Assembly (NCBI GenBank): GCA_022600175.1
Contig: JAHZKW010000025.1
Span: 1 to 34,680 of the forward strand
Direction of reading: 5' to 3'
Origin: Campylobacterota bacterium
GTDB taxonomy: Bacteria; Campylobacterota; Campylobacteria; Campylobacterales; QNZT01
Length of the DNA stretch: 34,680 nt
Made by a program: the position numbers and the translations under genes. Within the stretch, counting starts at the first letter, position 1; every line of letters begins with the position of its first letter. Positions 1-15,155 of this stretch are shown one piece after another. The notes beneath the pieces are model-generated. The model made no database searches and was not told the DNA's origin. It saw only the letters and a program-made list of their open reading frames with translations.

Positions 1-330
1 ATCTATTTTATATCCTATAAGATTTAGTGTACCCACTTGGTTCAGACACTCAATACTATGACACTTCTTACAGATAAAGTGTGCATGTTTAGTTTTGCTA
101 AGTTCATAATAGCGCTTTTTACCATCTGACTCAAAACCATTAATGATTCCTGCCTCTTCAAATGTTGTCATGTTGCGATAAAAAGTGGTTTTATCCATCT
201 TTAGATCTACTTTTACTTCATCATAACAGAGTGGTTTATCACTCTTTAGAAATAGCTCTAAGAGTGAGGTTCTAGGGGCTGTCATTTTCAAATTGTGTTC
301 GTTTATAATCTCTTTTGCATTCATCATCAT
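1..330 (-). CDS. Fur-family metal-responsive regulator (partial; C-terminus beyond window start)
   Basis: Not in the ORF track because it runs off the window. Reverse strand from ATG at 330 reads MMMNAKEIINEHNLKMTAPRTSLLELFLKSDKPLCYDEVKVDLKMDKTTFYRNMTTFEEAGIINGFESDGKKRYYELSKTKHAHFICKKCHSIECLNQ..., with Fur winged-helix architecture, HxHFxCxxC and a further Cys. Confidence 0.85.
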   Translation of the reverse strand, partial: MMMNAKEIINEHNLKMTAPRTSLLELFLKSDKPLCYDEVKVDLKMDKTTFYRNMTTFEEAGIINGFESDGKKRYYELSKTKHAHFICKKCHSIECLNQVGTLNLIGYKID

Positions 331-352
331 ATTATAGCAAAAAATTTAGAAA

Positions 353-381
353 GTTTAAATGCAACTAAGTATCATTTAAAC
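353..381. promoter_or_regulatory. Perfect 9-bp inverted repeat (GTTTAAATG-N11-CATTTAAAC), candidate Fur/Zur-family operator in divergent promoter
   Basis: Direct reading: gtttaaatg caactaagtat catttaaac, between the Fur-family gene and the lipoprotein gene. Confidence 0.55.
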
Positions 382-421
382 TAAGATGGTTTATAATTCA
401 CAAAAATTTAAGGAGTAGAAT

Positions 422-1354
422 ATGCCATATAAATTATCGATGTTAATTTCAGTATTGGTGACAACAATGACATTTAGTGGATGTGGAGGAGATAGTGGGA
501 GTGATAATAATGTTACTAGTAGTAGTGTAGACCTTCCAGATGGAAAGACGTTGATTTTTTATGACGCAAAAAGTTCTAAACAGTATAGTTATGATACGGA
601 AACAGAGCGTTATACACAGATGAATGTTGCAGAGAAAAACTACGACATGGAGGGGAAAAGTGGAAATATTTTCACTTGGTTTGATCCTACAAATGGTACA
701 GCCATAGATCAAAAAATCATCATGTTTAAAGATACCTATGACTATAGTGTAGATGGTAATGTCACATATGATGACTTTCACTATTTAGGTCATTTCCATA
801 CAGAAGATGATGCACAGGTTTTTGCTGCACATAGTGCAAGTGAATTTGATCCAGATAATAATGCAAGTGTTAAAAAATTAGCAGCTTTAAAGAGACTTAG
901 TAGTGCACTCAATGAGAGAGAGTTGCAAAAAGAGAAGATTTTAGAAGTATTACCTGCTGACAAAGTACTCTGTAACTACTATCAAATTGAGCATACTGAA
1001 GTTGAAGAAGAGGAAGAAGCATTACCTTATATTGCATTGACAACCAATGGTCAGATCTATATCTATAGTGAAAATAATGAAACACTTTCTCAGATACAAG
1101 CACCGATTCAATTAGAGGGTGTGACTGAGTGTAAAGAAGATGAGAGTGCAATAGCCCATTATAGTGAAGAGGGTGTGTTAGTTTTTAGTGCGCAGACACA
1201 AAAACTCTATCTTGTGGATAGTCATGGCGATGATTTCCATCAACATTCAACCTTTACGATATCAAGGTTTCTTCCTGAAGATTTTACACCGACACAAATG
1301 GCAGGGATAGGTGAAGGAGAACATGATCACGATGAAGATGGTTATGAAGAGTAG
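422..1354 (+). CDS. Putative lipoprotein, acidic/His-rich C-terminus
   Basis: Signal peptide plus lipobox (TMTFSGC), RBS-like aaggag upstream, C-terminal GEGEHDHDEDGYEE; stop overlaps the start of the TonB receptor gene. Confidence 0.75.
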   Translation: MPYKLSMLISVLVTTMTFSGCGGDSGSDNNVTSSSVDLPDGKTLIFYDAKSSKQYSYDTETERYTQMNVAEKNYDMEGKSGNIFTWFDPTNGTAIDQKIIMFKDTYDYSVDGNVTYDDFHYLGHFHTEDDAQVFAAHSASEFDPDNNASVKKLAALKRLSSALNERELQKEKILEVLPADKVLCNYYQIEHTEVEEEEEALPYIALTTNGQIYIYSENNETLSQIQAPIQLEGVTECKEDESAIAHYSEEGVLVFSAQTQKLYLVDSHGDDFHQHSTFTISRFLPEDFTPTQMAGIGEGEHDHDEDGYEE

Positions 1355-3422
1355 TGCCTTTGGTATTTCTCTATTTTTGATGGTACCAGCACTCTATGCT
1401 GATACCCTCTCTCTTGAAACAATTACCGTAGAGGGAGTAGAAGTTGATGATAACGCCTTAGATTATACGATCTCAAAAAAGAGTGAAGTGCTTAGTAAAA
1501 CTGCTAAAGGCGAAACTTTAGGGGATTATCTAGAGGCAATTCCAGGGATTGAAAATGCGAGCTATGGTCCTGCTGTCGGTCGTCCTGTAGTACATGGTAT
1601 GGAGGGGTATCGTGTCGGTATTTTGCAAGGAGATATGGTACTTAATGACCTCTCTGCAATGAGTCAAGATCATGCTGTAGGTCTCACTCCTAAAGCATCA
1701 AAACGATTAGAGTTGATTAAAGGTCCCTCAACATTACTTTATGGCACTTACAGTGGAGGGGTTATACGTGCACTAGGTGAAGAGCATGAAGAGACACTTT
1801 TAACAGGCACTCATGGTGAGATATATATAGGAAGTGGTACGACGGGTACCGCTACTAACTATGGTGCTAAAGTTGAAGTAGGTGATCATAATCTCTCGGC
1901 ATTTATACACCATTTTCATACAGAGAGTGATGATTATGAAAGTGCTGGAGCGCGAATAAAATATAGTGATACTAAGACAGATTCGACACATGTTGTTTTA
2001 GGTTATCAAGCCTCTTCAAACCAACTTATCAAACTCTACGTCGATAATCTTGAAAAATCGTATGCAATCCCAAATTTAACTCCTGAAGAGACACGTATTG
2101 AGATGGAACAAAGACGTTATGGTGGGGTACTTCATACCCAGTCACTTTTTGATATTTTGTATGGTATACGTACTGAATTACAGTATAGTGATTATCGCCA
2201 TTATGAGACTGAAGGTGGACGTTATGATGGGCTTTTTGATCAGGAACAAAGCAGTCTCTCTACCTTATTTCACTTTGATATTGGATCATGGGAAGGCGAG
2301 AGTCGTATAAGCTTTGAACATAATAAACTTCGTGTTTGTCATGAACATGGAGAGTGTAAAGAGTTCTCTACACCTGTGCGTACTTCGGCTGAAGATGGTG
2401 CTTCTTTATTATCTTATTATGAAGATAGGGGTATCCCTTATGCACATGGACATCCTATGCCTGATACCTCGTATAATCTTTTTTCTACGGGTATGACTCT
2501 AAAAAAAGTCTTGGAGATTGATGAACTCAGTGTAGCTACTAATATTCAGTATCGAAAACTGAAAGCTAATCCTGATAATATGCAGGAGACTTGGTTGATG
2601 CCAGCTTCCATCGATCCAGACTATTATGATGAAGATGAGAAGTTTGCAGCGAGTCTATCTGTGGGATGGTGGAGAGTCTGGAGTGATACTTTAAATTCTC
2701 AACTCTCTCTCTCCTATCTTGAGCGTCTTGCTTCTAGTCAAGAGCTGTTTTGGAATGGTTTTCATCATGCTACAGAGAGTTATATCATAGGAGATCGTGA
2801 TTTAGATAAAGAGCGATCACTCAATATTGATCTAGATGTGCAATATACTTTAAATGGCTTTGAAACGATAGCAGGTCTATATTATTACCATTTTGATAAC
2901 TACATCTACCAAGCACCACTTGCTGATGCTCAAGGTAATGTAACCCTTGATCCTTTTCATCTAAGCCCAGTATGGCAGATGAGAGAGGTGGGTGCAAAAG
3001 TGTATGGTGCAACATTGGAGGAGAGTTATACACATCTATTTTTTGATCATAAATTACGGTATGGTGTAGCCTTTGAACTACTGCGTGGAGAGCTTGAAGG
3101 AGGAGGTAATATACCTCGTATGGCACCTTTTAACACAACACTTTCAGTTAATGATAGTTATAAAGATTTTAAGGCGAGTCTTCGTTACAAAATCGTAGAT
3201 GAGAGTCGCTACGAAGCAGACAATGAGACGAGAACAAAAGGGTATGATTGGTTAAGTGCTTCTCTTTCTTGGGAGAAAAAACTCTCTTCAGGTACACTAG
3301 AGTTGTGGCTCAAAGGAGAGAACCTTACCGATAGTATAGCAAGAAATCACCTCTCTTTTCTTAAAGCAAGTGCACCACTTACTGGACGTCAAGTCAGTGT
3401 AGGTGGTAGTTTTAAGTTTTAA
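1344..3422 (+). CDS. TonB-dependent outer-membrane receptor, possibly zinc/metal (ZnuD-like)
   Basis: ORF 1311..3422; best start is ATG 1344 (MKSSAFGISLFLMVPALYADTLSLETITVEGVEVDD). Plug domain (GIENASYGPAVGRPVVHGMEGYRVGILQGD, LELIKGPSTLLYG), C-terminal beta-strand ending in F, and His-rich segments CHEHGEC and YAHGHPMP. Confidence 0.85.
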   Translation: MKSSAFGISLFLMVPALYADTLSLETITVEGVEVDDNALDYTISKKSEVLSKTAKGETLGDYLEAIPGIENASYGPAVGRPVVHGMEGYRVGILQGDMVLNDLSAMSQDHAVGLTPKASKRLELIKGPSTLLYGTYSGGVIRALGEEHEETLLTGTHGEIYIGSGTTGTATNYGAKVEVGDHNLSAFIHHFHTESDDYESAGARIKYSDTKTDSTHVVLGYQASSNQLIKLYVDNLEKSYAIPNLTPEETRIEMEQRRYGGVLHTQSLFDILYGIRTELQYSDYRHYETEGGRYDGLFDQEQSSLSTLFHFDIGSWEGESRISFEHNKLRVCHEHGECKEFSTPVRTSAEDGASLLSYYEDRGIPYAHGHPMPDTSYNLFSTGMTLKKVLEIDELSVATNIQYRKLKANPDNMQETWLMPASIDPDYYDEDEKFAASLSVGWWRVWSDTLNSQLSLSYLERLASSQELFWNGFHHATESYIIGDRDLDKERSLNIDLDVQYTLNGFETIAGLYYYHFDNYIYQAPLADAQGNVTLDPFHLSPVWQMREVGAKVYGATLEESYTHLFFDHKLRYGVAFELLRGELEGGGNIPRMAPFNTTLSVNDSYKDFKASLRYKIVDESRYEADNETRTKGYDWLSASLSWEKKLSSGTLELWLKGENLTDSIARNHLSFLKASAPLTGRQVSVGGSFKF

Positions 3423-3668: not shown

Positions 3669-3739
3669 AGAAAAGCTCCTTATTGTATTTTACTGGAATT
3701 TTCTACTTTTGAAAAGATTGCTTTTTCGGGAGGATTACC

Positions 3740-3904
3740 CACCGATTACAAGTTGCCAAAAGATTGCTGCAAGATAGTTATTTAAATGTCAATGAAATAT
3801 CCCAGCAGATAGGATATAAATATACCCAAAACTTTTCAAATGCTTTTTATAAAAGGTTTGGAGTACGACCTAAAGAGTTAATGAAAAGTAGAAATAATTA
3901 TTAA
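3740..3904 (+). pseudogene. AraC-family regulator C-terminal HTH remnant
   Basis: Frame reads HRLQVAKRLLQDSYLNVNEISQQIGYKYTQNFSNAFYKRFGVRPKELMKSRNNY*, the second AraC HTH; no N-terminal part is present upstream. Confidence 0.8.
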
Positions 3905-4062: not shown

Positions 4063-4980
4063 TTAGTAATAATACTTTCTACTTTTTAGAAGATCAATCG
4101 GTCTTAATCCATGTTTCTTGGTAAATGCTTTTGAAAAACTAGATAGAGATTTATATCCTATAAGTGTGGCAATTTCTCCTATGCTCATATCACTACTTTT
4201 TAGAAGTTCTACTGCATATTCTAATTTATGATGCAAAAGGATATTATAAGGGGTATCGTTAAAAACTTTTTTAAACCCACATTTTAATTTAAACTCGTTT
4301 AGACTTACTTGTCGAGAGAGTTCTAGGATACTTGGAGGGTTTTGCATATTTTTGATAAGTATCTCTTTTGCTTTTTTAATCGCTTCTATATCATAGTCGT
4401 CTAGTTTAAGTTTATTGGTTTTATTTGGTTCTATATCTATAAGACTTTGAATCTCTAATGAGATAATTTCCAGTATTTTTGACTGAGCATAAAGTTCATC
4501 TAGTTGATTATTAAAAGGATTATGGTATATATTGTTTAGTATAAGTTGTATCTGAGGATTGATATCTTTTTTTGTTAATAATTCTGTCGGTTTGTTTGTC
4601 TCAAGATGTTCTATAATATTTTCTTTGCTCTTTCCTTCTGGTAGATTTTTAAGTAAAAAATCTTTTTCTAAAGAAATACTCGAATCTTTAATTTCCCCTT
4701 TTGTAAGAAGAGAATCAGTTTTATCATAATTTAAAGTATATATACAAAGTTGATTTTTATGAGATAAGTTTTGGCAAATTGGTTTTATATTATTTTGCTT
4801 GTAATAAAAGGCTAATCCACTAATTGGTATCTGAGCTGTGTATCTAATATCTTCTTGTAAAGATAGTTGATTTTTTATAAAAAAGATATCATTATTGATG
4901 TTTCTTTCAAATGAATTGTTCACAATATAATCTGCATTATAATATGGTTGAAATTGCTCGAGTATACTTATATCTGACAA
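4063..4980 (-). CDS. AraC-family transcriptional regulator (PchR/YbtA-like)
   Basis: C-terminal AraC HTH (LNEFKLKCGFKKVFNDTPYNILLHHKLEYAVELL...IGEIATLIGYKSLSSFSKAFTKKHGLRPIDLLKSRKYYY); divergent from a TonB receptor. Confidence 0.88.
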   Translation of the reverse strand: MSDISILEQFQPYYNADYIVNNSFERNINNDIFFIKNQLSLQEDIRYTAQIPISGLAFYYKQNNIKPICQNLSHKNQLCIYTLNYDKTDSLLTKGEIKDSSISLEKDFLLKNLPEGKSKENIIEHLETNKPTELLTKKDINPQIQLILNNIYHNPFNNQLDELYAQSKILEIISLEIQSLIDIEPNKTNKLKLDDYDIEAIKKAKEILIKNMQNPPSILELSRQVSLNEFKLKCGFKKVFNDTPYNILLHHKLEYAVELLKSSDMSIGEIATLIGYKSLSSFSKAFTKKHGLRPIDLLKSRKYYY

Positions 4981-13385: not shown

Positions 13386-15155
13386 ATGTTTTATAAAAAG
13401 CATATTACATTATCTGTTGTACCCATATTGATCTTTACAAATAGTATGAATGCAAAAGATTTACAAAGTTTAAATACTGTGACAGTGACAGCACAAAAAG
13501 TAGAGGAAAATATCCAAGAAGTACCTATCTCTATGACGTTTTTTGATACCTATTCCATAGAAGATAAACAGATAAAGTCTGTAAAAGATATTGCACCCTA
13601 TACGCCAAACTTGATGTTGTTTGATAATAGTGGTGGAGGGAGTTTTACGCCTACTATGAGAGGGGTAAAAGCTAGAAATACGCTTTCTACTGCTGTAGGA
13701 ATGTATATAGATGGAATTCCCACTTTAAATATTAATGGTTTTGATGAGACACTTATGGATATAGAGAGAATAGAAGTGTTAAAAGGTCCTCAAGGTACTT
13801 TGTATGGTAAAGGTACTATTGCTGGTGCAATCAATATTATTACAAAAAAACCAGACAATGAAGTAAGAGGAAAACTGGGACTAGAGCTAGGAAGTGATAA
13901 TAAAAAAGAGTATTTTTTTAATACTAGTGGTCCTATTGTCAAAGATAAGTTTTATATAGGAGTCTCTGCAAAACATTATGAAAAAGAGGGTTTTATCACA
14001 AATACCAATGGAGGAAAGATTGACGATAGGGCGCATGCGTATGGTAAAATAAACTTTAGATATACACCGACTGATCATCTCGAATTTTCATTGCTATCTT
14101 CTATATTAAAGCGAGATGATGGTGATAATATTGTCAATGGCAAGGATTCTGAAGATAGAGTAGTCACGAGTGATCTAGATGGTTATGATAAATCTGAAAC
14201 AACGACCCATGCACTTAAAATCAAATATGATATCAATGATTATCTTTTTGAATCAATCACTACCAATAGAGAATTTAAATATGTAAATTTGTCTAACTAT
14301 CATTTTACAAAAAATACAGATTTTCATGCAAAAAGAGATGATACGTATACTAAAATATCTCAAGAGTTTAAACTAAGTCATAGTTTAGATACTTTCAAAT
14401 ATTTAGTAGGCTTTTATGCTGATAAAGATGATAATAAAATTGATTATATCTCATATTATCCTTCAGCTACTTACCCCACAAATCAAGATGCAGATGGAGA
14501 CTCTATAGGTTTGTTTATACATAGTGAGTATGATATCAATGATAAAATATCATTGATGTCAGGGATTAGATATGATAAAGATGAACGGGAACTACAAGAT
14601 ACATCGATGCGTTTAAATTTATCTAAATCAGATAGTGCAGTGAGTCCCAAAATCTCTTTAAAATACCAACAAGATCAACATAATATGTTTTATGCCACGA
14701 TTGCAAAAGGATATATTTCAGGTGGATTTAATATCTATTCATCTCCTGGATACTCAAAAAAGTTTGACAAACAAACGTTATGGAATTATGAAGTAGGGGC
14801 TAAAAATTCATTTTTTGATCATAGACTTTTTTTAAATAGTGCTCTATTTTATATGGATATAAGTGACTTGCAGGTGAAAACCTCTCCAGAACCTGGTAAA
14901 TCATATATCTCAAATGCTGCTGAAGCTACTTCTAAAGGTTTTGAATTAGAATTAAATGCAAAAGTAACACAATCATTAGAACTTTTTGCTTCATATGGGT
15001 ATACAAATATAGCTTTTGATAAGTTTGAAGATGTCAATGGCAACTATAAAGGTAACCAAAACTCTTATGCCCCAAAACAGCTCATCATTGCAGTATGTGC
15101 AAAAGCACTTGTAGAGAGTATAGATATCATTAAAAATTTACGAAACATAAAATAA
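13386..15155 (+). pseudogene. TonB-dependent siderophore receptor, probably C-terminally truncated
   Basis: Good signal peptide, TonB box (LNTVTVTAQK) and plug (RIEVLKGPQGTLYGKGTIAGAINIITKKP), but ends NSYAPKQLIIAVCAKALVESIDIIKNLRNIK* without the last beta-strands and terminal aromatic residue seen in the 686-aa paralog. Confidence 0.7.

Follow-up and report, generated by a model that had tools for sequence, protein, structure and literature searches.

A ZnuD-type TonB-dependent receptor encoded with its own propeller-like lipoprotein in Campylobacterota: a possible two-component outer-membrane zinc importer

A few Campylobacterota encode a ZnuD-type TonB-dependent receptor together with a lipoprotein of its own. 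The pair was analyzed in a window of 34,680 nt (the whole stretch of DNA considered here), which comprises in full one contig (C74) of a 2.5 Mb genome. The start of this contig, positions 1-3422, contains a divergent Fur-family gene followed by the lipoprotein and TonB receptor genes, and all three were found where the original prediction had placed them (Table 1). We consider it probable that this module is a zinc-starvation unit, in which a Zur-controlled lipoprotein captures zinc outside the cell and delivers it to the ZnuD-like receptor. Zinc as the substrate is well supported by four lines of evidence, that is, the receptor homology, the zinc ligands, the shared operator, and a gene island of one Sulfurovum locus (L010). 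More tentatively, and with somewhat less than even confidence, the two proteins may constitute a two-component outer-membrane zinc importer of Campylobacterota, with a previously undescribed family of propeller-like lipoproteins capturing zinc at the surface and lidding or feeding a ZnuD-type receptor. The original prediction, of a metal acquisition module with a possible hand-over from lipoprotein to receptor, was correct in its observations, and our results support most of its reading.

Table 1. Features of the regulator-lipoprotein-receptor module in the window
Feature	Position	Strand	Remarks
Fur-family regulator gene, probable Zur	1..330	-	Pfam FUR, E=1.2e-15; truncated at the contig end, with 110 of about 121 codons present
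Predicted regulator-binding site TGCAACTAAGTATCA	360..374	.	7-1-7 palindrome with one half degenerate; divergent promoter; pattern matched exactly
Candidate -10 box TATAAT	392..397	+	Inferred by direct sequence reading; 17 bp downstream of the operator
Propeller-like, His-rich lipoprotein without a named family	422..1354	+	310 aa; lipobox FSGC; AF2 pLDDT 78.7
Shine-Dalgarno sequence AAGGAGA of the receptor gene	1314..1320	+	Direct sequence reading; inside the lipoprotein gene
ZnuD-like TonB-dependent receptor	1332..3422	+	Likely start ATG 1332; longest frame from GTG 1311
CHEHGEC...HGHPMP coding segment	2337..2462	+	One long loop joining barrel strands 9 and 10, according to a low-confidence AF2 secondary structure

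Loci related to the module (nine were compared, with L009 and L011 being near-identical) all belong to Campylobacterota. The nearest one comes from "Campylobacterales bacterium BB8", the remaining ones from metagenome genomes of Sulfurovum and Sulfuricurvum. The receptor gene lies directly downstream of the lipoprotein gene in all nine, and in eight of them, with the exception of L013, the two genes overlap. The overlap in the window, described in the original prediction, is confirmed by the coordinates, with a length of 44 bp if translation of the receptor starts at GTG 1311 and 23 bp if it starts at ATG 1332. As the Shine-Dalgarno sequence is well placed for ATG 1332, this start, and hence the shorter overlap, is more probable. 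Profiles of the lipoprotein and of the receptor (the latter regarded as present at E<=1e-80) were each found in four genomes of a sample of 298 from the class, and these are the same four; the counts were obtained on equal-sized class samples, with one further search on a phylum sample. The original prediction had called for a check of gene neighbourhood and co-occurrence, and both show that the lipoprotein gene stays with that of the receptor. Neither of the two is present in one genome of the same genus, and so the distribution of the module is patchy. In L010, the genes for ZnuA, ZnuC, a COG0523 protein, a second Fur-family protein, the regulator, the lipoprotein, and the receptor form one continuous island of ~9 kb.

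Several further observations concern the surroundings of the module. In seven of the nine loci (L007:689-1048, L008:3470-3823, L009:3024-3365, L010:5592-5945, L011:18-413, L012:5488-5841, L013:5670-5939), a small protein (90-131 aa), absent from the window and from BB8, is encoded directly in front of the lipoprotein gene. Its N-terminal part includes a hydrophobic stretch, and it contains His residues and, in most cases, a CxxC pair. It does not belong to any Pfam or NCBIfam family where members were checked, and is a possible third component. In the window itself, what looks like a leftover of the C-terminal part of an AraC-type regulator, lacking a start, lies at 3690-3903; next comes an intact gene of the AraC type, encoded on the opposite strand (4063-4980). 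Another TonB receptor frame (13386-15155, 589 aa) apparently misses the last barrel strands, possibly due to a frameshift or decay.

The lipoprotein has no accepted sequence match in Pfam, NCBIfam (none at E<=1) or PDB. Two weak Pfam matches, Glyoxal_oxid_N and DUF3048_C, were rejected, as they fall below the cut-off and differ between members. One candidate relative (L005, E=0.001) turned out to be an unrelated 773-aa protein with no receptor gene, and a search of plasmids yielded no relatives. The AlphaFold model consists mostly of beta structure, plus a single long helical insert. Its Foldseek matches are propellers (E about 1e-4, probability near 1), but the superposition is poor (TM 0.2-0.36, with 0.36 the best listed), and for this reason the protein is called here propeller-like and not a propeller.

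His residues in positions 124, 137, 268, 273, 275 and 303 of the lipoprotein are invariant in the nine loci, H120 and H126 are retained in eight of them, and the Cys pair C184, C237 is invariant. The C-terminal end, HDHDEDGYEE, reads as originally quoted. The DNA encoding this His-rich tail also serves as the ribosome-binding site and start codons of the receptor gene, and hence its codons are constrained and the tail should be interpreted with caution. Still, the tail in L013 is rich in His and acidic residues though the genes there do not overlap, which favours selection on the protein. The lipoprotein probably binds zinc, and its proposed role beside the receptor is deduced from the fact that the two genes always go together and are translationally coupled, from the lipid anchor, and from the conserved His residues. 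It probably faces outward, while surface exposure is a property that the sequence considered here cannot show.

A different orientation seems unlikely, though it is the most probable of the alternatives: the module would be the same zinc module, but with the lipoprotein facing the periplasm and carrying zinc from the inner side of the receptor to ZnuA, in the way AztD supplies AztC. AztD, a propeller that binds zinc, has a disulfide, His ligands in the pore, and a C-terminal His ligand (PMC6689063), and the lipoprotein, whose model is propeller-like and which has a conserved pair of Cys residues and a C-terminal His, is similar to it in these respects; moreover, AztD genes too adjoin Fur-family and COG0523 genes. 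However, the lipoprotein does not match the AztD model NF038015, and its obligate partner gene encodes an outer-membrane receptor and not an ABC transporter, which is found nearby only in L010. The same model identified no AztD in the 298 sampled genomes of the class, and plasmid operons with AztB-like permease matches contained no recognisable AztD. It is less probable still that what the lipoprotein recruits is a carrier of zinc, either a zincophore or a foreign metalloprotein, from which the receptor would strip the metal, in analogy to TbpB and transferrin. Bipartite lipoprotein-receptor systems of Neisseria do operate by carrier recruitment (PMC6965322), but the conserved His residues of the lipoprotein fit direct metal binding, and no zincophore synthesis genes were seen adjoining the module.

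The receptor was originally predicted to be ZnuD-like, and both sequence and fold place it with ZnuD, apart from siderophore receptors. In particular, its best NCBIfam match is ZnuD (E=4.8e-53), followed by the copper receptor model (E=1.2e-16), while siderophore models score 0.004 or worse. The sequence search of PDB gave ZnuD (4rdr) first (E=3.6e-34) and OprC second (E=1e-8). ZnuD is also the top Foldseek match (E=2.5e-22), with OprC the second-best structural match, the AlphaFold model of the receptor being weak (pLDDT 56.6). With 180.8 bits, the receptor is below the cut-off of NF038289 (950 bits), which is a narrow "exception" model; judged by its sequence, it is a ZnuD-like relative outside this model.

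In the structure of Neisseria ZnuD, zinc is held by Asp99, His100, Glu340 and His499 (PMC4557270). After correction for the deposited sequence being offset by 14 residues, these ligands align with D120, H121, E299 and H485 of the receptor, all invariant in nine of nine relatives, with E299 situated in the weakest-scoring aligned stretch. The segments CHEHGEC (residues 343-349) and HGHPMP (residues 379-384, numbered from GTG 1311), which had been pointed out in the original prediction, are present, and the Cys and His residues of both are invariant in the nine relatives. In the low-confidence model there are 22 strands, and long loops occur at odd-to-even turns, so that the loop between strands 9 and 10 would be extracellular.

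The complete ortholog of the regulator truncated in the window (L006:5537-5902, 121 aa) contains both CxxC pairs of the Fur family. The regulator differs from the four other Fur-family proteins of its genome, and its NCBIfam matches fall below all equivalog cut-offs, with Fur, PerR and Zur not told apart. As the protein cannot be named Zur from its sequence alone, the argument for this assignment is the shared operator.

The 7-1-7 palindrome layout is typical for operators of Fur-family TFs. Three exact matches to the pattern TGCRACTWAGTNNCA are present in the genome (0.3 expected by chance): one is that of the window, and contig C154 has the other two, along with a third site that has one mismatch. 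Both exact sites of C154 belong to the zinc island of the genome, where they precede the COG0523 GTPase and ZnuA-ZnuC-ZnuB genes. BB8 has TGCCACTAAGTATCA at the position equivalent to the operator of the window, and TGCAACTTAGTCGCA precedes the orthologous regulator in Sulfurovum L010 and L012. In the genomes of relatives (n=5), five sites with at most one mismatch were found, compared to none for the reversed control, and four of the five are located at a COG0523 gene or at the regulator-lipoprotein-receptor operon; the palindrome pattern is seen upstream of the COG0523 gene in BB8 and upstream of the orthologous regulator operon in two Sulfurovum genomes. When up to two mismatches are allowed, the pattern is not more common than the reversed control, and hence only near-exact sites count. 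The two mismatches in the right half of the window operator relative to perfect palindromes count against it. An AT-rich inverted repeat of 10 bp (352-381), a longer operator candidate, was dropped, since it is not retained in L006, where the nested TGCAACT-A-AGTATCA is nearly retained.

The position of the site and the operator shared with zinc genes suggest that the regulator acts as Zur; it would respond to zinc and is itself the likely binder of the palindrome. The operator of the divergent promoter, common to the znu/COG0523 island of the genome, favours zinc over iron. Import of another metal (copper, nickel or iron) is very improbable, since, though both structure and sequence put the copper receptor OprC in second place and the NCBIfam copper-receptor model matches as well, ZnuD scores far above the copper model, the zinc ligands of ZnuD are retained while the alignment with OprC is limited to the plug and the first strands, and the operator is common to znu and COG0523 genes.

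The zinc island on C154 (L043, G000:C154:5000-20000) encodes the following behind its operator sites: the COG0523 GTPase, a HisI-RibA fusion, another TonB receptor, a binding protein resembling ZnuA/AztC, and a further ZnuA along with ZnuC and ZnuB. This second receptor is of the heme/siderophore type by model and could serve a zincophore. The island also contains genes for a diverged RibA-like paralog and an extremely His-rich protein of 118 aa. In Sulfurovum L010 (3310-4140), palindromes of a second type, TGCAATTTGATTGCA and TGCAATTAATTTGCA, were observed by the COG0523 gene and the gene for a 142-aa Fur-family protein, and hence L010 may harbour two regulators of the zinc type whose sites are related.

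Many of these Campylobacterota inhabit sulfidic environments, where zinc is likely scarce. In the proposed mechanism, the zinc-bound Fur-family protein (Zur) would occupy the palindrome, over the -35 region, and keep the operon off. Upon zinc scarcity, the lipoprotein and the receptor would be co-produced by translational coupling, with the gene overlap itself being observed. The lipoprotein, anchored in the outer membrane, would bind zinc or a zinc-carrying ligand via its conserved His residues and hand zinc to the extracellular His/Cys loop of the receptor, from which it would proceed to the buried Asp/His/Glu/His site. TonB energy would then pull zinc through the receptor towards ZnuA and the ABC transporter ZnuBC, whose genes lie at another place in the genome. 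We infer both the contact between the lipoprotein and the receptor and the metal hand-over. If true, lipoprotein-assisted TonB transport, otherwise concerned with large ligands (glycans, vitamin B12, siderophores, transferrin), would also cover a single metal ion, and another phylum would have a zinc counterpart to the propeller lids seen in Bacteroides. Moreover, the analysis provides a predicted zinc-regulon operator for one group of Campylobacterota, and a directly testable system.

The module shares features with several known systems. As in the case of ZnuD/TdfJ from Neisseria and Acinetobacter, there is homology of the TonB receptor, a buried Asp/His/Glu/His site, a zinc-regulon context, and, if the strand count of a low-confidence model holds, a His-rich external loop. 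The receptor differs in that it is about 20-27% identical to these proteins and in that its His/Cys segments are found in the strand 9-10 loop, not in loop 3 as in ZnuD. According to a review (PMC6965322), TdfH and TdfJ/ZnuD, the zinc receptors of Neisseria, work without a lipoprotein partner, and our literature search, with subscription journals mostly outside its coverage, found no zinc receptor-lipoprotein pair.

AztD, a propeller transferring zinc (PMC6689063), is comparable to the propeller-like lipoprotein in its link to zinc, His ligands, disulfide, and C-terminal His, but it is longer, mostly soluble, periplasmic in Gram-negatives, and often accompanied by a ZnuA-type ABC transporter. 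The exoprotein ZepA of Anabaena and others participates in Zur-linked extracellular zinc acquisition and is encoded near COG0523 and TonB receptor genes (PMC10957091); it differs in being a secreted PEP-CTERM protein instead of a lipoprotein, and the likeness is drawn from its description, not from sequence.

In Bacteroides, BtuG and XusB are propeller lipoproteins that form lids on TonB receptors for vitamin B12 (PMC10404256) and siderophores (PMC13142918), respectively. These systems differ from the module in ligand and phylum, and the lipoprotein has no sequence match to solved chains. As in BtuB-BtuG and XusA-XusB, however, the lipoprotein gene adjoins its TonB receptor gene, here in all nine loci, and by analogy we read the module as a two-part zinc importer that would work like BtuBG or XusAB.
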